From contig SGZL01000012.1 of the NCBI GenBank assembly GCA_004213955.1, positions 1-35,060 on the forward strand: 35,060 bases of DNA, given 5' to 3'. This stretch comes from Gammaproteobacteria bacterium (GTDB lineage: Bacteria; Pseudomonadota; Gammaproteobacteria; Magnimaribacterales; AG-339-G14). The notes below the pieces were generated by a model. The model saw nothing but the letters and a program-made list of their open reading frames with translations, was not told the DNA's origin and ran no database searches. Below, one piece after another: positions 20,278 to 34,028 of this stretch (positions are counted from its first letter, which is position 1; each line of letters begins with the position of its first letter). A program made the translations under genes and the position numbers.

Positions 20278-20565
20278 TCAGCTTATTAGCTTATGGGTTG
20301 TTATTTCTGGAGCTCCAGCTAAAAAAGGTGCTAATTCCATACCAATAGTTTTGAAATGTTCGGTTTGGGTATGATTTGCATGAGCTGCTTCATCTTCGTA
20401 AACCTCAATCATCATAATCGTTTGTGGGTCAGAAGTTTCATGCATTTGATAATAAACACTTCCTGGCTCGTTGTCAGAAACAGCTTGTACAAGCTTTCTC
20501 ATAACTTCTTTAAACCCCTCTAGTTCGCCATCTTTTATTTTTAGTTTTGCTATTGCTCCAATCAT
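20278..20565 (-). CDS. Antibiotic biosynthesis monooxygenase (ABM) fold protein
   Basis: Small protein of 95 residues with the ABM/YgiN-like dimeric alpha/beta-barrel pattern. MIGAIAKLKIKDGELEGFKE forms the first strand and helix, EPGSVYYQMHE and IMMIEVYEDEAAHANH the central strands, and the C-terminal helix is around HFKTIGMELAPFLAG. Proteins of this fold include quinol monooxygenases and many of unknown role; the substrate cannot be told. An ideal ribosome binding site (AAGGAG) precedes the ATG. It is first in a minus-strand set with zapE and hspQ, an unusual companion for a division ATPase. Confidence 0.85.
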   Translation of the reverse strand: MIGAIAKLKIKDGELEGFKEVMRKLVQAVSDNEPGSVYYQMHETSDPQTIMMIEVYEDEAAHANHTQTEHFKTIGMELAPFLAGAPEITTHKLIS

Positions 20566-20636: not shown

Positions 20637-21254
20637 ATGATAAAAATATGGGGTACAGAAAGTTCAAGAGCAATGAGACCCATATGGACTGCAGAAGAGA
20701 TGGGAATAGAATACGAACTCGAAATGATGCCGTTTCCTCCAAGAGTATTTATGAAAGAGTATTTAGATGTAAATATGTTGGGAACTATCCCTTACTTAAT
20801 TGATGGTAATGTAAAAATGACAGAATCTGTTGCTATGTCCCAATATTTGGTTGAGAAATATGGACCAACTGACTTAAGAGTCATGCCAAATGAACCTGAT
20901 TATCCAGATTATTTGAATTGGCTTTTTCACTCAGATGCTACTCTAACTTTTCCTCAAACGGTTGTTTTGAGATATAAATTACAAGAGCCAGGCGTCGCTG
21001 ATGCAGCGGTTGATGGTTATAGCAGATGGTTTGTCTCTAGATGTAAATTATTAGAGAAAACTTTAAATGATAGAGAATATTTATGCTCTAACAGGTTTAC
21101 TATTGCAGACATCTGCGTAAGTTACGCTTTTGTGGTTGCTGAGTCCTTAGGTATAGATCAAGCTTTTAAACCTAATATTAAGAGATATACAGAAATGCTT
21201 TTTGATAGAGAAGCTTTTAAAAGGTCAAGATCATATAAGTTTGAAGAAAAATAA
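20637..21254 (+). CDS. Glutathione S-transferase family protein
   Basis: Protein of 205 residues with an N-terminal thioredoxin-fold GST domain and a C-terminal helical domain. The N-terminus WGTESSRAMRPIWTAEEMGI carries a Ser-rich active-site turn (Ser9/Ser10). The cis-proline lies in GTIPYL (~residues 53-58), and the glutathione gamma-glutamyl contact is in ESVAMSQYL. The C-terminal domain has YLCSNRFTIADICVSYAF, the usual N-capping box with aspartate. Class and substrate are not assigned. AGGT precedes the ATG by about nine bases. It is transcribed divergently from the ABM gene. Confidence 0.88.
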   Translation: MIKIWGTESSRAMRPIWTAEEMGIEYELEMMPFPPRVFMKEYLDVNMLGTIPYLIDGNVKMTESVAMSQYLVEKYGPTDLRVMPNEPDYPDYLNWLFHSDATLTFPQTVVLRYKLQEPGVADAAVDGYSRWFVSRCKLLEKTLNDREYLCSNRFTIADICVSYAFVVAESLGIDQAFKPNIKRYTEMLFDREAFKRSRSYKFEEK

Positions 21255-22222: not shown

Positions 22223-23359
22223 ATGAAATCACCAATTTGTGAAATGTTAGAAATTGAATTTCCTTTGGTTGCTTTTTCACACTGTAGAGATGTCGTTGTT
22301 GCAGTTTCAAAAGCAGGAGGATGTGGAGTTTTGGGAGCAGTAGGGATGTCTCCTGAGCAATTAGAGAAAGAATTAAAATGGATTGATGAGCATATAGATG
22401 GCAAGCCTTACGGTGTTGATGTATTAATTCCAAATAAAATGGTTGGAAAAGATGAAAAGTTCAATCCTGACAAGTTGGCAAAAATGATTCCTCAGGAGTA
22501 TGCAGATTTTAGAACGGATGTATTAGAAAATCATGGAATAGAGGCGCCTGAATTAAGAGAAATAGACACTGCAGGCTCTGGATTTGCTGAGAATACTCAG
22601 TCCGACGGTGCTAAAGCTTTATTAGATGTAGCTTTCAATCATCCTATAAAAATTATTGCTAATGCTTTAGGAGTTCCACCAGATTGGATGATCGAAATGG
22701 GCAAAAAAAATAATTGCAAGGTTGCTGCTTTATTGGGAACAGCTCAACACGCAATAAATCAAGTAAAAGCAGGAGTAGATATTCTAGTGGTTTCTGGTAC
22801 TGAAGCGGGAGGACATTGTGGAAGTGTTTCTACAATGGTTTTGATTCCTGAAGTACATGAGGCTATTCAGCCTTATGGAGATGTCCCTATTTTGGCCGCT
22901 GGCGGAATTGTGACCGGAAAACAAATGGCTGCTGCAATGGCGATGGGTGCATCGGGTGCATGGTGCGGATCGGTGTGGTTAACGACAATTGAATCTGAGG
23001 TAGAGCCAATTATTAAAGAAAAAATGGTTGCTGCAAATTCTAGCCAGACTGTAAGGTCTAGAAGCAGAACTGGAAAACATTCAAGACAATTAGTAACTCC
23101 TTGGACAGAGGCCTGGGAGTCAGAGTCAGCTCCTGAACCTCTTCCAATGCCACTGCAACCAATGGTTGCTGAACCAGCGCTGCAAAAAGTAAATAAGTTA
23201 GCAGCAGGGGGACATGAGGGAGCTAAAGATTTAGCTACTTATTGGGTAGGTCAAGGCGTAGGGCTAATGAATCAAAGCATATCTGCTAGTGACGTTGTTC
23301 AAGAATTCAAAGAAGATTTCATAAATGCTTATGAAAGATTAAACGATTTTGTAAGTTAG
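22223..23359 (+). CDS. NPD/nitronate monooxygenase-like FMN protein
   Basis: TIM-barrel flavoprotein of 378 residues in the 2-nitropropane dioxygenase (NPD) family. An N-terminal MLEIEFPLVAFSHCRDVVVAV stretch is followed by AGGCGVLGAVG (~residues 31-41). The active-site segment VSGTEAGGHCG has His198 at the position of the family's catalytic base. The FMN-phosphate segment ILAAGGIVTGKQMAAAMAMGASG is intact. Known members oxidise nitronates, and relatives (FabK) reduce enoyl-ACP; sequence alone does not decide. A strong site, AAGGAG, precedes the ATG. Its stop lies four bases from the convergent exported ABM-like gene. Confidence 0.88.
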   Translation: MKSPICEMLEIEFPLVAFSHCRDVVVAVSKAGGCGVLGAVGMSPEQLEKELKWIDEHIDGKPYGVDVLIPNKMVGKDEKFNPDKLAKMIPQEYADFRTDVLENHGIEAPELREIDTAGSGFAENTQSDGAKALLDVAFNHPIKIIANALGVPPDWMIEMGKKNNCKVAALLGTAQHAINQVKAGVDILVVSGTEAGGHCGSVSTMVLIPEVHEAIQPYGDVPILAAGGIVTGKQMAAAMAMGASGAWCGSVWLTTIESEVEPIIKEKMVAANSSQTVRSRSRTGKHSRQLVTPWTEAWESESAPEPLPMPLQPMVAEPALQKVNKLAAGGHEGAKDLATYWVGQGVGLMNQSISASDVVQEFKEDFINAYERLNDFVS

Positions 23360-23363
23360 AGCT

Positions 23364-23828
23364 TTATTTAATCTTAGAGATTTCTTCACTGAGTTCACCT
23401 GCAACTCTGTCGAAACCATAAAGATTTCCACGGAAATCCATTGTGTATGGTCCTAATGCCTCTTTAAGTTTTGAATTTGCATTGCCTAAGATCGAAGCAC
23501 TTTTAATAGAAAAATTTTCGACAAATCCAGCTTCCCACTTTGTGCCTGTGAAGTTTTTCATATGAAATAAAGCAGCCTCATTATTTGGATATATTTCCAA
23601 CAAAAAAACTTTGTTTTCTGTATTAGAAAAGTGATATTGGTAGACCAGTGTTTGTGGTTCATTTTTTTTTACGTTATCTGTAATTGTTGAAACAAAACTA
23701 ACCGCACTATTTTCTTTTCCTTCATTAATTTCCAGATCAATGGCAAAGACTATTACATCAAGTTTTGCATGATGCATCCCAAATATTGAAGTGGAAATAA
23801 GTAATAAAAAGAGTGAAATTTTTTTCAT
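23364..23828 (-). CDS. Exported ABM-like small protein, function unknown
   Basis: Protein of 154 residues with a signal peptide (KKISLFLLLISTSIFG then MHHA). The mature part shows a dimeric alpha/beta-barrel pattern. Strand LDVIVFAIDLEI is followed by helix SAVSFVSTITDNVKK; then come LVYQYHFSNTENKVFLLEIY and helix NNEAALFHMKNF, as in ABM/YgiN domains. The tail from ~residue 110 (LKEALGPYTMDFRGNLYGFDRV) is not part of that pattern. I do not recognise a named family, and an exported ABM fold is uncommon. It is the last gene of the minus-strand operon DUF1330, alcohol dehydrogenase, SDR, this gene. Confidence 0.7.
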   Translation of the reverse strand: MKKISLFLLLISTSIFGMHHAKLDVIVFAIDLEINEGKENSAVSFVSTITDNVKKNEPQTLVYQYHFSNTENKVFLLEIYPNNEAALFHMKNFTGTKWEAGFVENFSIKSASILGNANSKLKEALGPYTMDFRGNLYGFDRVAGELSEEISKIK

Positions 23829-23847
23829 AATTTAGTCTCGTTAACAA

Positions 23848-24606
23848 TTAATGATTCCACCAAGCTTGATCTGAAAAAGCTCTGATGTCAATTTCATGAG
23901 TCCAGGTTGATTTTTTTTGTTTAGCAATAAACAAGTAAGTTTCTGCAACTTCTTCTGGCAAGATCATTCCATTTTTTCCTTTTTGCTCTTTAAATTGTTC
24001 GAACAATTCAGGACCCAACATTTTTCCTAAAGTATCAGGAGCATCTACAGCACCGTCAATAATAACGTGTGCGACATGAATTCCATCTTTGGAAAATTCT
24101 GCATTTAGAGACTGACATAACATTCTTCTTCCACCCATTGCAGCAGCATGTGAGTGTTGTCCGCCATTTCCTCTAACAGCTGATGTGGCAGAAGTAACTA
24201 TAATGTTTCCAGTTTGTCTTTCTTTCATTTTGGGAGTGATAACTTGAGCTAGTCTGAACAAACCAAATGTAGCCATTCTCCATCCCATTTCAAAGGCTTT
24301 GTAACTAGTTTCTGCTAAAGCTCTATCACCAATTTGAGCACCAATGTTATAAATCACAGTATCTATGGGCCCAATGTTAGATTCAATTTTATTGACTAAA
24401 TCTTCGATTGAATTTTCTTCAATTACATTTAAGAGTGAACCAGAAGCCTTGCCGCCTGATTCTTTTATTTCTGCAATTAGTTTATTTAAACCATCCTCAT
24501 CGGTTCTTCTGGCTAAGTAAGAATGATAACCATCAGCTGCAAATTTCTTAGCAACAGTTCCTCCTATGCCTGCGCCGGCTCCAATTACTAAACAAACTTT
24601 TTCCAT
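23848..24606 (-). CDS. SDR-family protein with substituted catalytic residues
   Basis: Short-chain dehydrogenase/reductase fold, 252 residues. The dinucleotide motif is GAGAGIGG (residues 9-16), NIGA (87-90) replaces NAG, and a long conserved tail ends in DQAWWNH. Aligned without gaps to FabG through the shared GNGGQ, the catalytic Ser-Tyr-Lys become Ala140, His153 and Met157 in SATSAVRGNGGQHSHAAAMG. The rest of the fold looks well kept (HVIIDGAVDAPD, LPEEVAETYLFIA), so this is not decay. It may bind NAD(P)H with another chemistry or act without catalysis. AAGGAA precedes the ATG. It follows the Fe-type alcohol dehydrogenase by 16 bases. Confidence 0.85.
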   Translation of the reverse strand: MEKVCLVIGAGAGIGGTVAKKFAADGYHSYLARRTDEDGLNKLIAEIKESGGKASGSLLNVIEENSIEDLVNKIESNIGPIDTVIYNIGAQIGDRALAETSYKAFEMGWRMATFGLFRLAQVITPKMKERQTGNIIVTSATSAVRGNGGQHSHAAAMGGRRMLCQSLNAEFSKDGIHVAHVIIDGAVDAPDTLGKMLGPELFEQFKEQKGKNGMILPEEVAETYLFIAKQKKSTWTHEIDIRAFSDQAWWNH

Positions 24607-24622
24607 AACTTTATAAAATTCC

Positions 24623-25753
24623 TTACATTGCCTCTAAAAATAATTTTTCCCATTCTTCTGGAGTAGGTAATCTGGGAGTTGTCATGTTGCTTGGGTCCGT
24701 TATTGAATGAGCAACGAGTTCAGGGATCATTTCTTCAGTCACTCCCATTTCTTTCAACCCACTTGGCAAGCCAATTTTTTCGTTTAATTTTTCAATTTCA
24801 ACTGCTAGATCAACCGATTCGCTTTTTCCCATAGCTCTAGAAATTCTTGGATATTTATCACCTACATGATCATGATTGAACCTGAGAATTGTTGGCAATA
24901 TAACTCCGTTCAAAGTTCCATGATGCAGTCTCAGTTCTCGATTCGCTCCAATTGCATGACTCATGGAATGTACTGCTCCAAGTCCTTTAGAAAATGCCAT
25001 AGCACCTTCGGTAGAGGCCATCATCATATTCCATCGCGCATCTTTATCTTGACCATCTTCACAAGCTCTAATGAGACTCTCTTTTTTAATTATTTTTTCA
25101 ATTCCGTCTAAGCCAACAGCTTCAGCTGGCGGATCGTTGATCGGAGACATAATTGCTTCGATACAATGAGTAAGAGCATCCATTCCCGCCCCAGCTGTTA
25201 AAACAGGAGGTAAAGCTAGAGTTAGTTCTGGATCGCAAATAGCTGCATCAGGTCTTAAATGTTCGCTAGCGAGAATAAGTTTTCTTCCATCATTCATAAT
25301 GATTACTGAGCCAGGAGAAACTTCGCTGCCAGTACCAGAAGTAGTGGGGATAGCTATCATTGGCACGGTTTTATTTATTTTTCCTAAACCTCCTTCATTA
25401 ATGGAATAATCAACTACATTGCCTTCATGATTTGCCATCAACGCAACCGCTTTTCCTAAGTCCATACTTGAGCCTCCTCCAAAACCTATAACGCCATCAC
25501 AGTCATTAGTTTTGTATGTTTCCAAGGCTTCGTTGACAGCCTTTTCAGTAGGATTGGCCGGCGTCTTTTCATAAAAAGTAGGAGAAAGCTCGTTTGACAG
25601 AAGATTTCTTATTTTGTCTGTCATACCAATGGAAGCAAGACCAGGGTCTGTACATATTAAAGGCTTTTTTATTCCATGAGCTTTAAGTATTTCAGATATT
25701 TTTTTTAAAGATCCGTTTTCAAAGTGAGGTTTGTTGAGAAAATTGAGTTGCAT
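24623..25753 (-). CDS. Iron-type (group III) alcohol dehydrogenase
   Basis: Protein of 376 residues in the metal-dependent alcohol dehydrogenase / maleylacetate reductase-like family. The NAD(P) motif GFGGGSSMDLGKA is at 90-102, and PTTSGTGSEVSP is at 136-147. The metal ligands of FucO-type enzymes are all found: Asp192 and His196 (MDALTHCIEA), His262 (GAVHSMSHAIG) and His278 (LRLHHGTLNG). The reaction is therefore a reversible alcohol-aldehyde/ketone conversion with an unknown substrate; reduction of an aromatic-ring-cleavage product is another option in the family. It follows DUF1330 by nine bases and precedes the odd SDR, in an operon divergent from a TonB-dependent receptor. Confidence 0.92.
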   Translation of the reverse strand: MQLNFLNKPHFENGSLKKISEILKAHGIKKPLICTDPGLASIGMTDKIRNLLSNELSPTFYEKTPANPTEKAVNEALETYKTNDCDGVIGFGGGSSMDLGKAVALMANHEGNVVDYSINEGGLGKINKTVPMIAIPTTSGTGSEVSPGSVIIMNDGRKLILASEHLRPDAAICDPELTLALPPVLTAGAGMDALTHCIEAIMSPINDPPAEAVGLDGIEKIIKKESLIRACEDGQDKDARWNMMMASTEGAMAFSKGLGAVHSMSHAIGANRELRLHHGTLNGVILPTILRFNHDHVGDKYPRISRAMGKSESVDLAVEIEKLNEKIGLPSGLKEMGVTEEMIPELVAHSITDPSNMTTPRLPTPEEWEKLFLEAM

Positions 25754-25762
25754 TATAAAAAC

Positions 25763-26065
25763 TTATCCTAAACTTTTGATGACTGATAAATTATGCATTA
25801 CAGAATTTGGATGTCTGTGGTCTTTTGACAACTTCTGATACTCTTCATCGTTGTACCAACTGTCAAATTCATTCTTTGAATTGAATGTCCACATGGCAAC
25901 TCTACCTTTTAGTTCTTCGCCTTCAATTTTTTCTGGAGTGTCATCAAAAGTAATAAATTCTCCACCATGTTTTTTTAAAATACCAAAAAAGCCTTTTTCA
26001 TAATTTCTAAATTCTTCCGAATTACTTATTTCAAAATTTGCTATAACGTAAACCTTATCAGACAT
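25763..26065 (-). CDS. DUF1330 family small protein
   Basis: Protein of 100 residues of the DUF1330 type, a ferredoxin-like dimeric alpha/beta-barrel domain. KVYVIANFEISNSEEFRNYE (first strand and helix), HGGEFITFDDTPEKIEGEEL and VAMWTFNSKNEFDSWYNDEEYQKL fit the family pattern. I start at the ATG at 26065 because GAGGAG lies a few bases upstream; an in-frame TTG at 26077 falls inside that site and is unlikely. Its function is unknown. It is the first gene of the four-gene operon with the alcohol dehydrogenase. Confidence 0.85.
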   Translation of the reverse strand: MSDKVYVIANFEISNSEEFRNYEKGFFGILKKHGGEFITFDDTPEKIEGEELKGRVAMWTFNSKNEFDSWYNDEEYQKLSKDHRHPNSVMHNLSVIKSLG

Positions 26066-26083
26066 ATCTCTCCTCAACTATAT

Positions 26084-26100
26084 GATGAAATTATCTTATC
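26084..26100. promoter_or_regulatory. Imperfect palindrome between the DUF1330 operon and a TonB receptor
   Basis: GATGAAATTATCTTATC is a 17-base imperfect palindrome with both ends GAT...ATC. It lies 19 bases upstream of the DUF1330 start and 118 bases upstream of the receptor start. It resembles a degenerate Fur-type site, and iron control of a TonB-dependent receptor would be usual, but the DNA is AT-rich and chance is possible. Confidence 0.2.
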
Positions 26101-26217
26101 AAAAAATAGTATAAATTTTTTTTATTTTTCTTATCGCCGACTCAAAGACGGGCAAAAAGTCTTTTAATTATATGATTTTAAAAATAAAATTTTAAAAATA
26201 TTCTATAGGGGGAATAA

Positions 26218-28704
26218 ATGAGAAATTTAAAAACGTCTGCAATTGCATTATTTACATGTATTGTCTTTTCAAGCGCTGGAGTAGCTCAAGCTACATTAGA
26301 GGAGCTTGTTGTTACAGCTACTAAATCTGAGTCTACTGTAATGGATACTGCAGCTGCAGTAACTGCAATAAGTGGCGAAGGGCTGCAATCAGCCAGAGCC
26401 AACAATATTGAAGGATTGTCTTTAGTTTCGCCGGATTTAGTCGTTGCTGGGGAAGGAAAGTCTAGAATGAACTTAAGAATTAGAGGAGTTGGTTCATATG
26501 CTTTTGATATTGCTACTGACCCAGGTGTAATTATGGTGATTGACGGAATTGCCCAGCCTAGAATTTCAACCATGACACAAAATTTTAATGACGTTGAACG
26601 TCTAGAAATTCTAAAAGGACCCCAAGGAGCGCTTTATGGAACCAATGCCCTTGGTGGAATAGTTAACATTGTTTCAAAAAAAGCAACTCAAGAGCAAATG
26701 GCAAGATTAAGTATAGGAGCAGGAACTATTGGTTTAGTTAATTCAGATTTGATGATCCAAGGAGGAGTTACTGATTCAGTTTCTGCAAGATTTAATCTTC
26801 AAAAAACTACCGACGATGGCACCATGACTGAAACAACTTATGGTAACAACAATGGGGCGGATGTACAGGTAGCAAAATTACAATTTTACGGTGAAACCGA
26901 TGCCGGCGAGTGGAATGCTTCGTTATCACATACAACTTTAATGCAGGAAGCAGTAATATCTGAACCTGTTTTCTTATGTAATTCTGCTAATCCTCAAGCT
27001 CATTATGTCTTAACTCCTGCAATTCCTGGAAGCACAGATTTCTGTGCATCTCTTCCTGCTGCAAATGTTGATGGAGTTCAAGGTGACAAAAATACCGCTA
27101 ATGCGATTTATGCTGACTCAATTGCAGATCCTCGAGCTCAAGAGTTAACTACGGATGGTTTTAATTTTACTGAAACAATTAATTTTGGATTGAATTATCA
27201 AGTGGATTTTGATGATTATTCTCTTACTACGCTTTTTGGATATCAAAAGGCGAATTCTGGAGAATCAAGAGATTTTGATTCGTTTGTTTCAGACGTAATG
27301 ATTCAAAGTCATGGCGCAGACACTGAAACTATGACATTTGAACTGAGATTAGACTCTGAAACAGATTCTGGAATTGCTTGGTCTGCGGGTCTATATGCGA
27401 TGCAAGATGAAGGAACAAGAAGCGATAACTTCTCTACAGGCCCAGCTGGCTTACCTAGTGCTTTTGTAACACTTTCAGCAGTAGCAATGGTAAATAATGC
27501 TAACGGTACAACATTGAATCCATTGGCAAATCCAGGCGATATGGTAGCAGTTATTCAAGCAGTAAATGCTTGTGCTCAATCTGGGAATTGTATGGCCTAT
27601 GTCCAACCAACTGTCCAAAGAGGAACTAACTTTAACGGCACTACTGACTTAGCTAACTTTAACAATGTTCTTGCAGGTGGAAGGTTTGATAACATCGCCA
27701 CAGTGAGTATTGACACTGAAGTAACGGCAATTTTCGGAAGCGTTAAATTTCCTTTAACTGATGATTTATCTTTGCTTTTAGCAGGAAGATATACCGACCA
27801 TAGTAAACCCTACACTTATTCAGGAGCAACTAATGGTATCGGCGTGATATTAATGCCAGTTCCATTCAATACTGGTGAAATAGTTATTGAAGCAGAAGAA
27901 TTTACTCCAAAGGCTACTTTAGAATATGTATTTGACGATAGCCTAGCTTGGTTCACTTATTCTAATGGTTACAAAATCGGCGCACCAAGTTTTGCACAAT
28001 GGTCTTCAGCTGTCGCGAGTGTTCCGTCAGGAGATGAAGAAATAACTATGATGGAAGCAGGTTATAAAACTACCTTTGGTAATGGCAGCCAGCTAGAGTT
28101 GATTTATTATGATTATGATTACGATAATAAACAAAATTTATTAGTTGCTATGGGACCTACTGGACCATATGGAAAATTAGTATTCGGAGATGCATCAATT
28201 TCTGGACTCGATGTGGCGTTTAGAACTTTACTAGGTCCAGCAACTAAATTGTCTGTCGCTTACGCTTATATTGATGGTGCTTGGGATGATTTTGTTAACG
28301 ACGCAACTTATGGCGCTGGTTCAAGTAATCCTAATGGAAAACAGATGGCAGGATTACCGCTCCCATTTACTGCAGACAACAATCTTTCTTTGAGTTTGGA
28401 ACATGTTCAATCAACAGAATTGGGAGATATTGCTTTCACCGCTTCTTATGCTTACAAAGATAAATATATCTTGTTTGTAGAAGACTATCCTGGAGTAGTG
28501 GATGTTGATCCATACTCTCTATTGAACTTTGACATGACTCTTTCAACTAATGAAGGGTATGATCTTTCACTGTACTGTAAGAATTGTTTAGATGAGCAGT
28601 ATTACAACGTTGCTCTAATGTTGCCAAGACTTTCTGGAGGAGGAGCACGAAACCAACTTGCACAAGGAAGACAGATCGGAGTTCAGTGGACTTCTGAATT
28701 CTAA
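26218..28704 (+). CDS. TonB-dependent outer-membrane receptor
   Basis: Receptor of 828 residues. The signal peptide ends near AGVAQA (~residue 24). The TonB box region LEELVVTATKSE follows, then the plug domain (~40-160) with IRGVGSYAF, VIDGI and RLEILKGPQGALYGTNALGGIVNIVSK. The rest is a 22-strand-type beta-barrel ending in Phe828 (QWTSEF), as outer-membrane proteins do. Several cysteines sit in long loops (LCNSANPQ/FCASLP, CAQSGNC) and late in YCKNCLDEQYYN, a typical C-terminal receptor motif. The substrate is unknown; siderophores and larger organics are both possible. A G-rich site (GGGGGAATAA) precedes the ATG. A strong terminator follows. Confidence 0.93.
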   Translation: MRNLKTSAIALFTCIVFSSAGVAQATLEELVVTATKSESTVMDTAAAVTAISGEGLQSARANNIEGLSLVSPDLVVAGEGKSRMNLRIRGVGSYAFDIATDPGVIMVIDGIAQPRISTMTQNFNDVERLEILKGPQGALYGTNALGGIVNIVSKKATQEQMARLSIGAGTIGLVNSDLMIQGGVTDSVSARFNLQKTTDDGTMTETTYGNNNGADVQVAKLQFYGETDAGEWNASLSHTTLMQEAVISEPVFLCNSANPQAHYVLTPAIPGSTDFCASLPAANVDGVQGDKNTANAIYADSIADPRAQELTTDGFNFTETINFGLNYQVDFDDYSLTTLFGYQKANSGESRDFDSFVSDVMIQSHGADTETMTFELRLDSETDSGIAWSAGLYAMQDEGTRSDNFSTGPAGLPSAFVTLSAVAMVNNANGTTLNPLANPGDMVAVIQAVNACAQSGNCMAYVQPTVQRGTNFNGTTDLANFNNVLAGGRFDNIATVSIDTEVTAIFGSVKFPLTDDLSLLLAGRYTDHSKPYTYSGATNGIGVILMPVPFNTGEIVIEAEEFTPKATLEYVFDDSLAWFTYSNGYKIGAPSFAQWSSAVASVPSGDEEITMMEAGYKTTFGNGSQLELIYYDYDYDNKQNLLVAMGPTGPYGKLVFGDASISGLDVAFRTLLGPATKLSVAYAYIDGAWDDFVNDATYGAGSSNPNGKQMAGLPLPFTADNNLSLSLEHVQSTELGDIAFTASYAYKDKYILFVEDYPGVVDVDPYSLLNFDMTLSTNEGYDLSLYCKNCLDEQYYNVALMLPRLSGGGARNQLAQGRQIGVQWTSEF

Positions 28705-28733: not shown

Positions 28734-28765
28734 AAAAAAGCGCCTAATTAGTTAGGCGCTTTTTT
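28734..28765. terminator. Bidirectional rho-independent terminator
   Basis: A perfect 14-bp inverted repeat, AAAAAAGCGCCTAA and TTAGGCGCTTTTTT, with a four-base TTAG loop. A GCGCC core is flanked by an A tract and a T tract, so it can stop transcription from both sides: the receptor from the left and the MarR-like gene from the right. Its right edge overlaps the end of the MarR gene by two bases. Confidence 0.9.
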
Positions 28766-29276
28766 ATTTCGACTCTACAAGTTCAGATATTACCTCGTTG
28801 ATTTGATCTAAGGAAACACCAACTGTCTTTTCAAGGATACTTTTTACGGAAGGCCCAAGTGAATTAGCCAAAACTTGATATATTGAAAGATGCATGGCGA
28901 CCATTGAAAAAGCTTCTTCAGTCGGATGGTACTCGATCACTCTCTTATCTCTGCTAGGAATTTTTTTAAAATAGCCTTGTTTTGTAGCTCTACTAATTAA
29001 TCTCTCAATACTTCTTGTATTTAAATTAGTAGTTCCTACTAAATCACTCATGGTAAAAAATCCTTTGGTTATAAAATTAGAGACCATAATTAATCGAATC
29101 AACTCATATCTGCTGTCATTGACATATACCTGGTTCCAATCAGAAGTTTCTGCAAATTTAGCTATCACTTCGTACTTTTTTAACTCAAAATCAAGCATGG
29201 CTTGTGAAAGCAATTTCAAGCTGGCAAGTTTATCTAATTTATTTTTCATAAAGTTTGAAAATATTAAATGATACAT
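28764..29276 (-). CDS. MarR-like winged-helix transcriptional regulator
   Basis: Protein of 170 residues with a winged-helix domain in the middle. The helix FFTMSDLVGTTNLNTRSIERLISRATKQGYFKKI (~84-117) has the MarR-type recognition helix, and the wing contains SRDKRVIEYHPTEEAFS (D-x-R near residue 121). Helices before and after would form the dimer interface. The ATG may be at 29276 or at 29249 (KNKLDKLASLK start); neither has a good ribosome binding site. It is divergent from the sulfatase gene and convergent to the first receptor, so its own promoter, the sulfatase, or the receptor could be targets (inference). Confidence 0.75.
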   Translation of the reverse strand: MYHLIFSNFMKNKLDKLASLKLLSQAMLDFELKKYEVIAKFAETSDWNQVYVNDSRYELIRLIMVSNFITKGFFTMSDLVGTTNLNTRSIERLISRATKQGYFKKIPSRDKRVIEYHPTEEAFSMVAMHLSIYQVLANSLGPSVKSILEKTVGVSLDQINEVISELVESK

Positions 29277-29336: not shown

Positions 29337-30896
29337 ATGAAAATTTTTTTTCTTTTAATAATCACTCTTGTGTCGGGTTTCTTAAAAGCCAACGAGAAGC
29401 CCAATATAATAATCATTTTGACTGATGATCTAGGCTGGGGCGATGTTTCTTATCATGGAGGTTACATTCCAACTCCAAACATCGATCAATTGGCTCAAGA
29501 TGGCATGGAAATGAATAGGTTTTATGCCAATCCGGTTTGTAGTCCAACTAGAGCATCTTTATTAACCGGGCTTCACATTTTTAATCACGGTGTCGTGCGA
29601 CCCTTTATGAATCCAGCGGCTGAGCAAACAGGTATGCCGCCAGAATTAAAAATTATGCCACAGTATCTTAAAGAGGCGGGCTACCAAACCGCCTTGTCTG
29701 GAAAATGGCATCTTGGTATGGCTAAAGAGGAATTTTGGCCTACCAATAGAGGTTTTGAGACAAGTTATGGACATATGACTGGCGGCATAGGCTACTTCGA
29801 TCATACAGCTGCAGGTCGATTGGATTGGCACAGAAATGAAAAAACATTAATCGAAGAAGGATATTCAACTGAGTTAATTGCTAACGAAGCGATCAATATC
29901 ATTCAAAATAAAGATACAAATAGACCTTTGTTCTTATATATTGCTTTCAATGCACCACACACTCCCATAGAAGCACCAGATAAAAATATTGAATCTTTTT
30001 CTTTTTTGGAAAATAAAAAAGACAGGGTATACGCTGCAAATGTAAACGCTCTAGATCATGAAATAGGAAGGATAATAAAAGCAATAGAAAATAAAGGAAT
30101 ACTGGAAGAGACAATTATCATTTTCTTTAGCGATAATGGTCCAGTTTTCGATGTGGATCCGATAGTCAAAGTTATTGCTCCAAATCTAGTTAATGCCAGA
30201 GGAAGTACGGCCGGATTGAGAGGCAGTAAAGTTTCAGCTCTGGAAGGAGGTATAAGGGTCCCTGCAGTAATCTGGTGGAAGGGAAAAATAGAAAACTCAA
30301 AATCTGAGCAATTCTTTTTTGTACAAGACTTATTGCCAACTCTATTAACTGCATTAGATATAAAAGTGGATAAAACAGAATTTGACGGCAGAGATAAATG
30401 GAAGAATTTAATCACAAATGAAATAACTCCACCAAATAATGCCTTTGTTGGAGCGAGAGTTATTTCAGATGAAAGAGCTTTATTTGACGGTGAATGGAAG
30501 CTTTATTCGGCAAAACCTCAATTAATTCCCATATCGCCCTCGTATAGTTTGTTCAACATCGTTGAAGATCCTTTTGAAACGAACGATTTATCTAAATATG
30601 AACCTGAGATTTTTGAAAGTATGAAAACAATTCTTACCTCTTTACCAGGTCGAGATGTTGTGGGTGATATGAACCCAGCTCACTCTTATCTTCATGGTGA
30701 TGATAGGCAGGGAGGCACTGAATTAGGCTCTCCGTGGTTAGAAGGCGATTATGAATTACATACTCCACCCTCTACAGTTCTATCAATTCTAATCACAATT
30801 TGGATTTTAATATTAGCTTTTAAAGAATACTTATTGGCTCTATTAATAATCATTTTGATACCAATTATATTTTTTAAATTTGTAAGAAAATCATGA
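29337..30896 (+). CDS. Sulfatase with C-terminal membrane anchor
   Basis: Type I sulfatase of 519 residues. A signal peptide (KIFFLLIITLVSGFLKANE) is followed by IIIILTDDLGWGDVSYHGG, whose acids bind calcium. The formylglycine motif CSPTRASLLTG has Cys68, so it needs a formylglycine-generating enzyme from elsewhere in the genome. GKWHLGM (124-130), FNAPHTPIEAP and FFSDNGP are conserved sulfatase segments. Two hydrophobic helices at ~477-515 end in a basic tail (FVRKS), which suggests a membrane-anchored enzyme facing the periplasm. Substrate unknown. Its end overlaps the next start (ATGA), so it is probably coupled to the VTT-type gene. No clear ribosome binding site precedes the ATG. Confidence 0.92.
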   Translation: MKIFFLLIITLVSGFLKANEKPNIIIILTDDLGWGDVSYHGGYIPTPNIDQLAQDGMEMNRFYANPVCSPTRASLLTGLHIFNHGVVRPFMNPAAEQTGMPPELKIMPQYLKEAGYQTALSGKWHLGMAKEEFWPTNRGFETSYGHMTGGIGYFDHTAAGRLDWHRNEKTLIEEGYSTELIANEAINIIQNKDTNRPLFLYIAFNAPHTPIEAPDKNIESFSFLENKKDRVYAANVNALDHEIGRIIKAIENKGILEETIIIFFSDNGPVFDVDPIVKVIAPNLVNARGSTAGLRGSKVSALEGGIRVPAVIWWKGKIENSKSEQFFFVQDLLPTLLTALDIKVDKTEFDGRDKWKNLITNEITPPNNAFVGARVISDERALFDGEWKLYSAKPQLIPISPSYSLFNIVEDPFETNDLSKYEPEIFESMKTILTSLPGRDVVGDMNPAHSYLHGDDRQGGTELGSPWLEGDYELHTPPSTVLSILITIWILILAFKEYLLALLIIILIPIIFFKFVRKS

Positions 30897-31534
30897 AATT
30901 ACCTTTGTGGTTAAGATGGACTATTTTTGGAGTAATAGTTTTTACTTCTCTTGTCTTGCCCTTAATTATTTTTGAAAGCCCACTTTCGAAATATGGAGAA
31001 ATTGCTTTGAATTGGGCAGGAGATAACGAGTTATTAGTATCTTTTGTTGTGATTATCGCTCTTACAGCTGATGTAATTTTACCGGTACCTAATGGGCTAA
31101 CTAACACCCTAGCCGGAGTTTCTCTTGGCTGGACGGTTGCATCTTTAGTTGTTTGGGTGGGGCTTAATTTAGGAGCCTGTGTAGGCTATTGCCTGGGTCG
31201 TTTTGCAGCTAGGCCATTGGCCCAAAAAATGATTAGTGAAAGTGACTTTAACGAGGCTGAAAAATCCCTTAAAAATTTTAGTACCATAGGCTTGATCCTT
31301 TCTAGACCAGTCCCAGCTTTTGCAGAATTGATAACAATAAGCGCGGGTCTAGCAAGAATGTCTTTTATTAAATTTATCCTAGTAGTTGGAATTGTAAATA
31401 TTGGAGTTGCAGTCGTATTTTCAGGTATTGGCGCCGCAGCTATGGAAGCTAATTCTTCAACTCTAGCATTTATCGGAGTTGCTGTATTACCTGCTTTATT
31501 CTATTGGACTTATATCAAGTTTTATAAAAGATAA
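30893..31534 (+). CDS. VTT-domain (DedA/TVP38-like) membrane protein
   Basis: Integral membrane protein of 213 residues with a VTT-type core. LPVPNGLTNTLAGVSLGWTVASLVVWVG is the family's N-terminal half, GYCLGRFAARP (~101-111) carries the conserved G-R-x-x-x, and the C-terminal half has SRPVPAFAELITISAGLARMSF with the R-P-V-P motif and a following glycine-rich helix (GIGAAAM). Members act as lipid flippases or scramblases or have envelope roles. Overlap with the sulfatase gene suggests linked expression. It is seven bases from the convergent second receptor. Confidence 0.88.
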   Translation: MKLPLWLRWTIFGVIVFTSLVLPLIIFESPLSKYGEIALNWAGDNELLVSFVVIIALTADVILPVPNGLTNTLAGVSLGWTVASLVVWVGLNLGACVGYCLGRFAARPLAQKMISESDFNEAEKSLKNFSTIGLILSRPVPAFAELITISAGLARMSFIKFILVVGIVNIGVAVVFSGIGAAAMEANSSTLAFIGVAVLPALFYWTYIKFYKR

Positions 31535-31541
31535 CTTCAAT

Positions 31542-34028
31542 TTAAAAAGACTGTTGATAAGTCAATTTCCACTCTTCACCAGGTGCATAATAAGTAGTTT
31601 GGATGCTTGCTAGAACGGGATCTCCAAATTGAGCGTAACCATAAAGTTCATCGGTTATATTTTTCCCAACTAAGGTTAAAGTCTGTGAATCAGAAATCTG
31701 CAAACTTGAAGTAAAGTCTAAAGTGGAATAATTATGAAGTTGCGAATAATCATATAATTCCGTAGTCGTAAAATCGTCACCGACGTGAGTCCAACTCAAT
31801 GAAGAAGAAATCGTTCTAGAATTTAAAGAAAAAACATTTAGTAAAGTAATGTTAGTTCTAGACTCAGGACCTTCAGCATCGTAAGTAAATCCAGTTAAAT
31901 CATTTCCATTATCGTCTAGAAACTCTATATATTTACCACCGTAAGCCCCTCTCGAAGCAAGAACTGAAAAATAGTCATTGATGAAAGCTTTAATTTCAAT
32001 TTCGTATCCATCAACTTCTGCTTTTTGAATTGGTACGGTAGCAATAGATGCAGCGCCACTATTCGGATCTATTCTAGCGACACTTCTTTGATTGTTGATG
32101 TAGTCAAACAAAAAGATGTTTGCATTGACTTGTAATTTGCCATCCAAATAAGTTCCTTTCGTTCCAATTTCATAGTTGTCTGCGGTCTCAGCAGGGAAAG
32201 CAGAGACTCTGTCATCGTTGTTAAACCCACCAGAGGCGAATCCTTTTGCATAGGAAGCATAAATAAGAGAGCCATTAGGCAAGATATAATCTAACGCAAA
32301 TCTAAATGAGTCATTCTCAAATTCTTCAGTTCCTATACAGTAAGCATCTTTTTGAAAGGTTCCAAATGGACCAAAGCTAATCGACGTTCCCGCGTTAAAA
32401 GTTTGAGCACAAGTTCCTGCAGCGGGAGATCTTAAACCTCCAAAACCATTACTTAAACCAGGAATAATTGCGTCAGAATAAGTTTTAACCATTTTATCTT
32501 CACTTGTAAATCTGTAACCAAAGGTAACGTTTGTTTTGATATTTATCGCATAAGTTCCTTCAAAAAAGAATGCATCAGACTTATTTTCTGCAAAAGTAGT
32601 TTGTTGGGAGCTAAGAGCTTGCAAACTTTGAACAGTAGAACACAATTGAGCTACAGTAAGACTTGTTCCTGGATTATCACAATCGTTTCCAATTGCAGCA
32701 AAAGTAGCCGCGTGAATTTGATTAGCTCTTGCATTTACCGTAGCTTGAGTCTCGAGTGTGCTTACTCCATCAAAATACATTGTATTTAATTGGTTAATTC
32801 CAGATTCATCAAAAGTATAAGCACCGACAACAAAATCAAGTTTTCCATTTAGTGCTTCACCAGACCACCTTAGTTCTATTTGGTTAGAGGTTGCATCGTT
32901 AACAATATCTCTAGGGTCTAAATAAGACGCCGAAGTTCCTGCCAGAGGAGCATTCGGTCTATTTCCGTTTACACTAATACCAAGACTGCCATTAAGAGAT
33001 TCTAAATCTGAATGATTAAAAATTAATTTAACTTCCCCAAAATTTAATTTATAAGTTGTGTCTATAGTAGTTCTTTTTAAATCGTCATCTACACGAGGAC
33101 TTGTTATTGATGTTCCGCTTATACCAGGGACACTTGAATTACAATTTGTCTGTACGGCAGAGGCAAGTGTAGGGTCAGCAACAAAAGCAAGCCCCATAAA
33201 AGCCGAACCATTAATACCCTGTGCACCTGTTCCATTTAAAGGATGGGCTATCACCTCGCACGCACCAAGAACTCTATTTCCATCTCTGTTGTAATTTACG
33301 TGTGAGAATAAAATATCTATATCATTTGAGAGTTTATAAATTCCTGAAAGCCTAATAGTTTCGGCATCAATTGCTCCTGAGAATTCGTTACGGGTAGTGT
33401 TATATATATAACCGTCTTGTTTTTCTTGACTGTAAGAGAATCTAAGCGCGGTGATGTCTGAAATTGGAAGATTAGCCATTAAAGCTAATTCGTTCCTCGA
33501 ATCTGTTCCTGCTCCAACTCTTACTTTATAGTTTTGGGAATCAAAATTGGGCTTATTATAAAAAAAGGAAACTGCCCCAACGGTTGAGTTCTTTCCAAAC
33601 AAGGTACCTTGCGGACCTTTCAACACTTCGACTCTTTCTAAATCCCAAAGATCTAGAAAATTTCCTTGAGTTCTAGGGACATAAGCCCCGTCAATGTAAG
33701 TTGCCGCTTGCGATTCAGATGTAACAGAGATTCCACTACCACCAACACCTCTAATAGTCACTGCAGCAGTTCCATAAGCTCCATTTTTGACAACCTGCAA
33801 ATTTGGAGAAATACGATCAAGATCCTCATAAGTAAAGATTCCAATTTCCTCAATAGTTTCACCAGAAAATGCAGAAATTGAAATAGGAACAGATTGAGAT
33901 CCTTCCTCTCGTTTTCTTGCGGTGACAATGATTTCTTCAGAAATATTACTAAAAGTGTTTTGAGTAGATTGAGAAAACCCAAAAACAGGATTTAACGAAA
34001 TAATTATTAATAAAATTCTTAAGTGCAC
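31542..34028 (-). CDS. TonB-dependent outer-membrane receptor
   Basis: Receptor of 828 residues (the same length as the first by chance or distant paralogy). The start is a GTG, with a run of six G four bases upstream as an apparent Shine-Dalgarno sequence. The signal peptide is HLRILLIIISLNPVFGFSQ. TonB box region EEIIVTARKREEGSQSVPIS; plug with IRGVGGSGISV, YIDGAYVPR and RVEVLKGPQGTLFGKNS; barrel to a C-terminal Phe828 (YQQSF). Late YASYAKGFASGGFNND and NYEIGTKG are strand motifs common in Caulobacterales/Sphingomonadales-like receptors of organic substrates. The substrate is unknown. Several loop cysteines are present. Confidence 0.93.
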   Translation of the reverse strand: MHLRILLIIISLNPVFGFSQSTQNTFSNISEEIIVTARKREEGSQSVPISISAFSGETIEEIGIFTYEDLDRISPNLQVVKNGAYGTAAVTIRGVGGSGISVTSESQAATYIDGAYVPRTQGNFLDLWDLERVEVLKGPQGTLFGKNSTVGAVSFFYNKPNFDSQNYKVRVGAGTDSRNELALMANLPISDITALRFSYSQEKQDGYIYNTTRNEFSGAIDAETIRLSGIYKLSNDIDILFSHVNYNRDGNRVLGACEVIAHPLNGTGAQGINGSAFMGLAFVADPTLASAVQTNCNSSVPGISGTSITSPRVDDDLKRTTIDTTYKLNFGEVKLIFNHSDLESLNGSLGISVNGNRPNAPLAGTSASYLDPRDIVNDATSNQIELRWSGEALNGKLDFVVGAYTFDESGINQLNTMYFDGVSTLETQATVNARANQIHAATFAAIGNDCDNPGTSLTVAQLCSTVQSLQALSSQQTTFAENKSDAFFFEGTYAINIKTNVTFGYRFTSEDKMVKTYSDAIIPGLSNGFGGLRSPAAGTCAQTFNAGTSISFGPFGTFQKDAYCIGTEEFENDSFRFALDYILPNGSLIYASYAKGFASGGFNNDDRVSAFPAETADNYEIGTKGTYLDGKLQVNANIFLFDYINNQRSVARIDPNSGAASIATVPIQKAEVDGYEIEIKAFINDYFSVLASRGAYGGKYIEFLDDNGNDLTGFTYDAEGPESRTNITLLNVFSLNSRTISSSLSWTHVGDDFTTTELYDYSQLHNYSTLDFTSSLQISDSQTLTLVGKNITDELYGYAQFGDPVLASIQTTYYAPGEEWKLTYQQSF

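Follow-up and report, generated by a model that had tools for sequence, protein, structure and literature searches.

Alternating iron-type and zinc-type alcohol dehydrogenases beside a non-classical short-chain dehydrogenase/reductase in an operon of SAR86 bacteria

Organization of the locus

SAR86 is an abundant ocean bacterium. The locus described here lies on a stretch of 35,060 nucleotides (the window, WIN in comparisons), a single contig from a 1.06-Mb genome of the SAR86 family RedeBAC7D11, with SAR86 single-cell genomes and metagenome-assembled genomes as close relatives. The family called RedeBAC7D11 in PMC11582366 corresponds to AG-339-G14 of GTDB, a name which one relative from the same genus (L193) carries. 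The window holds an operon of four minus-strand genes, encoding a DUF1330 protein, an iron-type alcohol dehydrogenase (Fe-ADH), a protein of the short-chain dehydrogenase/reductase (SDR) family and an exported protein, and divergent from it lies the gene of a TonB-dependent receptor (Table 1). Two features make this operon worth following up: the repeated in-place exchange of the Fe-ADH for an unrelated zinc-type alcohol dehydrogenase (Zn-ADH) in relatives, and the conserved, non-classical active site of the SDR.

An initial annotation of this DNA had given the places of the four open reading frames, the spacers of 9, 16 and 19 bases between them and the divergent receptor gene, all of which were confirmed; the families DUF1330, Fe-ADH, SDR and TonB receptor were likewise matched by Pfam. 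In the following, RedeBAC7D11 is designated f1, with the genera g1 (that of the window), g2, g3 and g4, and the remaining SAR86 families are f2, f3 and f4. G numbers denote genomes and L numbers loci of relatives.

Table 1. Features of the operon and its surroundings in the window.
Feature	Position	Strand	Evidence and remarks
Fe-type alcohol dehydrogenase; position alternating with Zn-type ADH in relatives	24623..25753	-	PF00465, 158.6 bits
SDR-fold protein; Tyr replaced by His153, Lys by Met157, Ser139 kept	23848..24606	-	PF00106, 103.3 bits
DUF1330 protein; encoded first in the operon	25763..26065	-	PF07045, 68.5 bits (gathering score 23)
Exported protein of 154 amino acids; accessory	23364..23828	-	No Pfam match; ferredoxin-like (ABM/MupZ-type) fold
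Operator-like inverted repeat CCGNCT-N3-AGNCGG	26137..26151		Recognisable in 7/7 g1 genomes
Divergent TonB-dependent receptor; changeable neighbour	26218..28704	+	PF00593 (barrel), 83.6 bits; PF07715 (plug), 54.6 bits
NMO-family protein; conserved flank marking the position across f1	22223..23359	+	PF03060, 171.3 bits
Small protein with weak helix-turn-helix matches; possible regulator	28764..29276	-	HTH_36 and Penicillinase_R, below the Pfam cut-off

Exchange of the alcohol dehydrogenase gene at the locus

The locus is a lineage-specific operon with an operator-like repeat conserved in g1 and with a lasting core, an ADH gene directly followed by the gene of the non-classical SDR. This pair is the constant element and is kept in three genera of f1 (g1, g2 and g4). 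There, the open reading frame directly upstream of the SDR gene encodes either a Fe-ADH (PF00465) or an unrelated medium-chain dehydrogenase/reductase (MDR) of 348 amino acids with zinc-binding dehydrogenase domains. In the complete set of 40 species genomes of f1, the Fe type was found in 16 and the Zn type in 19 genomes, both types in none and neither type in five. Two of these five (G031 and G043) also lacked a match to the NMO flank, which is otherwise 79–100% identical within f1, and the other three (G384, G385 and G392) are 60–71% complete. The chance of zero overlap between both types in f1 amounts to 3e-7 if the genomes are treated as independent, a value which overstates the case because the genomes are related, and a tree-based test was used. 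In a tree of five flanking proteins, seven changes of the ADH type are needed, six of them forced by well-supported branches, and six independent pairs were obtained, all opposite in ADH type (sign test, p 0.031).

A precise exchange is seen in the near relatives L129 (Fe type) and L193 (Zn type), with a fourfold divergence of 0.09 in the NMO gene. The DNA of both loci is 96% identical from the start of the SDR gene onward and 89% identical upstream, and the ADH open reading frame is the sole difference between them. Furthermore, the Zn-type genes of L188 and L193 have a tract in common, mostly with 93–97% DNA identity, between less similar flanks. No remnant of the respective other ADH gene was detected at the loci examined, and intermediates with tandem genes followed by loss of one copy were rejected for this reason. 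A recent transfer of the whole cassette, which might explain the high identity of SDR, ADH and NMO between genera, was also rejected, because the fourfold sites are saturated like those of the flanks. That G031 and G043 lack both ADH and SDR was not accepted as evidence for linkage, because no NMO flank was detected in them and the region is possibly unassembled. A broken Fe-ADH gene together with a fragmented receptor region occurs in L197 (G390); these are likely indel errors of the assembly and not signs of decay.

Unrelated genes therefore occupy one position between the same neighbours and are mutually exclusive in f1, as in non-orthologous displacement in situ. In-place replacement of an operon gene by another of similar function is likewise described in the comparative-genomics literature; the present case differs in that two unrelated families alternate in both directions, at four positions within one order, and coexist within genera. 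No published report of a Fe/Zn-ADH exchange was found in the literature searched, and the term alcohol dehydrogenase does not occur in PMC11582366, which deals with SAR86.

Recurrence at other positions and in a second family

Counting the locus itself, the alternation was observed at four positions, distributed over two families, with neighbours and strand unchanged. At position B, located in g3, the Fe type is present in G011, G015 and G075 and the Zn type in G023, G059 and G063, and the neighbours are the same. Position C, in f3, adjoins amidohydrolases and a TonB receptor and carries the Fe type in G002, G006 and G010 and the Zn type in G022 and G062; except for G006, these genomes belong to one genus. 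Position D adjoins two acyl-CoA dehydrogenases and is occupied by the Fe type in G074 and by the Zn type in G038, again within one genus. Among 20 genomes of f3, four possess the Fe type and 15 the Zn type, and none possesses both. No genome of f1 or f3 has one type at one of the positions and the other type elsewhere.

In the ADH gene trees each type forms one clade within most genera, and transfers are superimposed: the Fe gene of G074 is nested among genes of f2, and the Zn genes of g1 are nested among those of g4. Together with the common tract of L188 and L193, this pattern agrees with rare founding displacements and later exchange via homologous flanks.

Acyl-CoA dehydrogenases were also considered as a link between the SDR of f2 and the ADH of position D, but this was rejected, since an identity of about 35% within the pairs is too low. 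The TonB receptors which follow the ADH at position C (L165, L167, L173 and L287) belong to a cluster with segments enriched in His, Asp and Glu, as seen in L160; these segments might hint at a metal ligand.

Properties of the two alcohol dehydrogenases

Like other iron-containing ADHs of PF00465, the Fe-ADH of the window possesses both the N-terminal and the C-terminal domain (158.6 and 124.3 bits) and all four metal-binding residues (D192, H196, H262 and H278), which are invariant in 26 sequences; its alternation with a Zn type at fixed positions sets it apart from the known enzymes. The best NCBIfam match was the 4-hydroxybutyrate dehydrogenase model NF058672 (456.1 bits), but membership was rejected, since the curated cut-off is 500. 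The Zn type shares both domains and the invariant catalytic and structural zinc residues with zinc-dependent MDR enzymes such as AdhP and the archaeal NAD-dependent ADH (1jvb/2eer). It reaches 188 bits against AdhP, with an AdhP cut-off of 344, and most closely resembles broad NAD-dependent alcohol dehydrogenases. The metal-binding residues are intact in every examined copy of both types. According to PMC3160333, an enzyme of the Fe-ADH family is proposed to oxidize short primary alcohols in SAR11.

A conserved SDR without the classical catalytic pair

The third operon gene encodes a Rossmann-fold protein of the SDR family, as seen from the Pfam match, the glycine-rich NAD(P) motif GAGAGIG and a VIA-align Z of ~29 to FabG structures. 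The Tyr-x3-Lys motif of classical SDRs is absent; His153 and Met157 are present instead, and Ser139 and the glycine motif are kept. The initial annotation had regarded this as an inactive site. The classical Tyr and Lys are indeed missing, but the gene is not decayed: His and Met were found in all 75 SDR homologues compared, within the motif QHSH in 73 of them and QISH in two (L210 and L211), and many polar residues around the replaced positions are invariant in the alignment. Beside SAR86, the sources of these homologues are records of alpha-, gamma- and deltaproteobacteria, of Myxococcales and of Binatota, at 63–70% identity. Of 299 evenly sampled genomes from the phylum, only three, including the window's own, had the His/Met type, which is thus rare but widespread.

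The best profile match in the PDB was 3h7a of Rhodopseudomonas palustris (141 bits), which shares the ATA-x-RG region and also lacks the catalytic Tyr. It has Phe at this site and keeps the Lys, in contrast to the invariant His and Met of the window's protein. Tyr-less SDRs such as 3h7a presumably correspond to the CDD subgroup SDR_c10. SDR paralogues of SAR86 with 33–41% identity also have Phe instead of Tyr and keep the Lys, as in 3h7a. In view of the invariance of His and Met in the 75 homologues and of the Tyr-less paralogues, this is an established alternative site in a branch of SDRs that lack the Tyr. The AlphaFold model of the SDR has a pLDDT of 84 and rests on 16 sequences. It is probable that the protein is a distinct His-based NAD(P) enzyme, and no published report of this motif was found in the literature searched. 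A subfamily which spans several phyla and in which invariant residues replace the catalytic pair represents a defined target for new SDR chemistry.

Further SDR branches of SAR86 (L272–L282) also have Phe for Tyr and keep the Lys (FASAK or similar), and they occur also in families without a close copy of the His/Met type.

Proposed mechanism and its alternatives

The ADH position of f1 is filled by either a Fe-type enzyme (group III) or a Zn-type MDR, never by both, and has been switched at least six times. In the mechanism proposed here, both enzymes may perform the same job, an NAD(P)-dependent alcohol oxidation or its reverse, and a streamlined genome would keep only one because the two are equivalent. 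A few founding displacements would have been followed by swapping of the versions through homologous recombination within the flanking genes that both have in common. The SDR-fold protein is predicted to bind NAD(P) and to use His153 and Ser139 instead of the Tyr-Lys pair, presumably acting on some related compound with a carbonyl or hydroxyl group. We consider it fairly probable that these elements hold together, i.e. a core operon of ADH and SDR, repeated in-place displacement of equivalent Fe- and Zn-type enzymes, and a His-based SDR. The recurrent and precise two-way swap of unrelated enzymes at the same positions offers a natural experiment on functional equivalence, and perhaps on metal economy in the ocean.

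Several points weigh against this interpretation. Beside the relatedness of the genomes and the small number of sequences behind the SDR model, several of the larger genomes of f2 hold both ADHs, at separate positions, and the functional equivalence may therefore be incomplete. Outside f1 the ADH does not adjoin the SDR, so that the link between them is local. Enzymes of the Fe-ADH family do not all use iron, so the family alone does not fix the metal of the window's enzyme. Finally, the roles of both ADHs and of the SDR are predictions from their sequences.

A more far-reaching version would see in the two ADHs a standing polymorphism at the operon position, with recombination exchanging the versions and metal supply selecting between them: a metal-economy switch comparable to flavodoxin and ferredoxin, beside a widespread His-based SDR subfamily. 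SAR86 is described as high in iron demand in PMC11582366. One may speculate that retention of one or the other version depends on the supply of iron and zinc, or on damage done to the Fe enzyme by oxygen. This version is regarded as tentative and rather unlikely; the allele frequencies of both ADHs are countable in existing metagenomes.

Alternatively, the SDR could be a catalytically dead subunit which needs an active SDR partner. One such subunit is BbsC of BbsCD; inactive pseudoenzyme subunits are known in this SDR heterotetramer from a reference cited in PMC10818641. The structure 7pcs was among the SDR structures compared, and the loss of Tyr and Lys would agree with such a role. However, no second SDR, which would be the active partner of a BbsCD-type complex, was found among the operon genes or those scanned next to them, and the replaced residues and many polar ones surrounding them are invariant. 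In different lineages the His/Met SDR is encoded next to unrelated neighbours, and this speaks for an enzyme that acts on its own rather than for a subunit. The dead subunit is thus considered unlikely, and a His-based enzyme is preferred.

Variability of the gene set and of the receptor

The initial annotation had proposed that receptor, DUF1330, Fe-ADH, SDR and exported protein might form one unit for uptake and catabolism of a compound. The complete set exists in g1 alone, but not in every member of this genus (L188 has the Zn type in place and lacks the exported gene), and it is not fixed beyond it. In g2 the locus consists of a different receptor, ADH, SDR and exported gene, without DUF1330; in g4 it comprises DUF1330, ADH, SDR and a different downstream gene, without the receptor. 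The exported gene thus occupies this position in g1 and g2 only, and DUF1330 in g1 and g4. The homologues in g3 are scattered across the genome, e.g. on one contig of G011 at ~628 kb (SDR), ~549 kb (ADH), ~124 kb (exported gene) and ~473 kb (DUF1330). Homologues in relatives lying apart from each other or lacking the receptor would speak against a fixed pathway, and this is largely what was found. The receptor, like DUF1330 and the exported ABM-fold protein, is an accessory that differs from one lineage to the next.

The receptor of the window is 93–95% identical to those of some g1 genomes and 47–48% identical to those of others, and SDR and Fe-ADH remain steady at 89–97% across the same genomes. 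In comparisons of WIN with L128, L188 and L190, the synonymous sites of the receptor are less diverged than those of the neighbouring genes, which indicates a recent exchange of the receptor between lineages. Because of this exchange and the split within the genus, the receptor is regarded as a changeable neighbour and not as a fixed partner. Two receptor versions with 47–48% identity occur at this place within g1 (e.g. L129 and L191 in comparison to the window).

A dedicated module in which the receptor takes up the compound converted by ADH and SDR would agree with the joint presence of all parts in several g1 genomes, with the conserved intergenic repeat, and with the g2 locus, where a receptor gene is likewise divergent and a P450 gene lies beyond it. 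Yet the receptor is absent in g4, only about 30% identical in g2 and replaced within g1, and the parts are scattered in g3, so that this module appears quite improbable. An operon of redox enzymes is supported; a receptor-linked pathway for one compound is not, and a fixed one beyond one genus is not supported either. Equally improbable is a mere hot spot of gene exchange, in which the ADHs would differ in substrate and exclude each other because one position is open; the exchange of the neighbouring receptor does show that the region recombines often, but the same two gene types, on the same strand and between the same neighbours, recur at four separate positions, and no f1 or f3 genome carries the second type elsewhere.

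In L210 and L211 an extra gene of ~321 amino acids lies between DUF1330 and Zn-ADH. Beyond the receptor of the g2 locus (L133:1208-4545 and equivalents), a cytochrome P450 and a DUF3604 protein are encoded.

Intergenic region, exported protein and neighbouring genes

A palindrome had been noted in the divergent gap. Most inverted repeats there represent AT-rich background, but one, CCGaCTcaaAGaCGG, is conserved and can be recognised in each of the seven g1 genomes, irrespective of their receptor version and ADH type. Its arms pair perfectly in five of the seven; L129 has one mismatch and L193 two. The repeat may be an operator. Six g2 loci (L196, L201, L204, L205, L207 and L208) have a different palindrome, GCACTA-N3-TAGTGC, upstream of the ADH gene of either type. 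In a scan for promoters and terminators, signals were no more frequent than in shuffled sequence. The DUF1330 gene most likely starts with the ATG at 26065 rather than the TTG at 26077. In g4 a homologue of the small protein beyond the receptor lies directly upstream of DUF1330, and this protein is a possible regulator, judged by its weak domain matches.

The exported protein had been described as ABM-like. A signal-peptide-like N terminus is present and the AlphaFold model (pLDDT 83) has an ABM-type fold, with Foldseek matches to ferredoxin-like and ABM proteins (best MupZ, 6fxd, E 3e-6), but there is no sequence match to ABM (PF03992).

A cytosolic protein of the ABM family (20278-20565; PF03992, 65 bits) is encoded beside an AFG1 ATPase and is conserved across f1. 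The region beyond the operon's receptor (29337-34028) encodes a sulfatase, a VTT-domain protein and another TonB receptor. The NMO protein and a neighbouring GST (20637-21254) are 93–95% identical between g1 and g2, and other flanking genes 49–61%; the synonymous sites of both genes are as saturated as those of the other flanks, which points to an unusually strong constraint.

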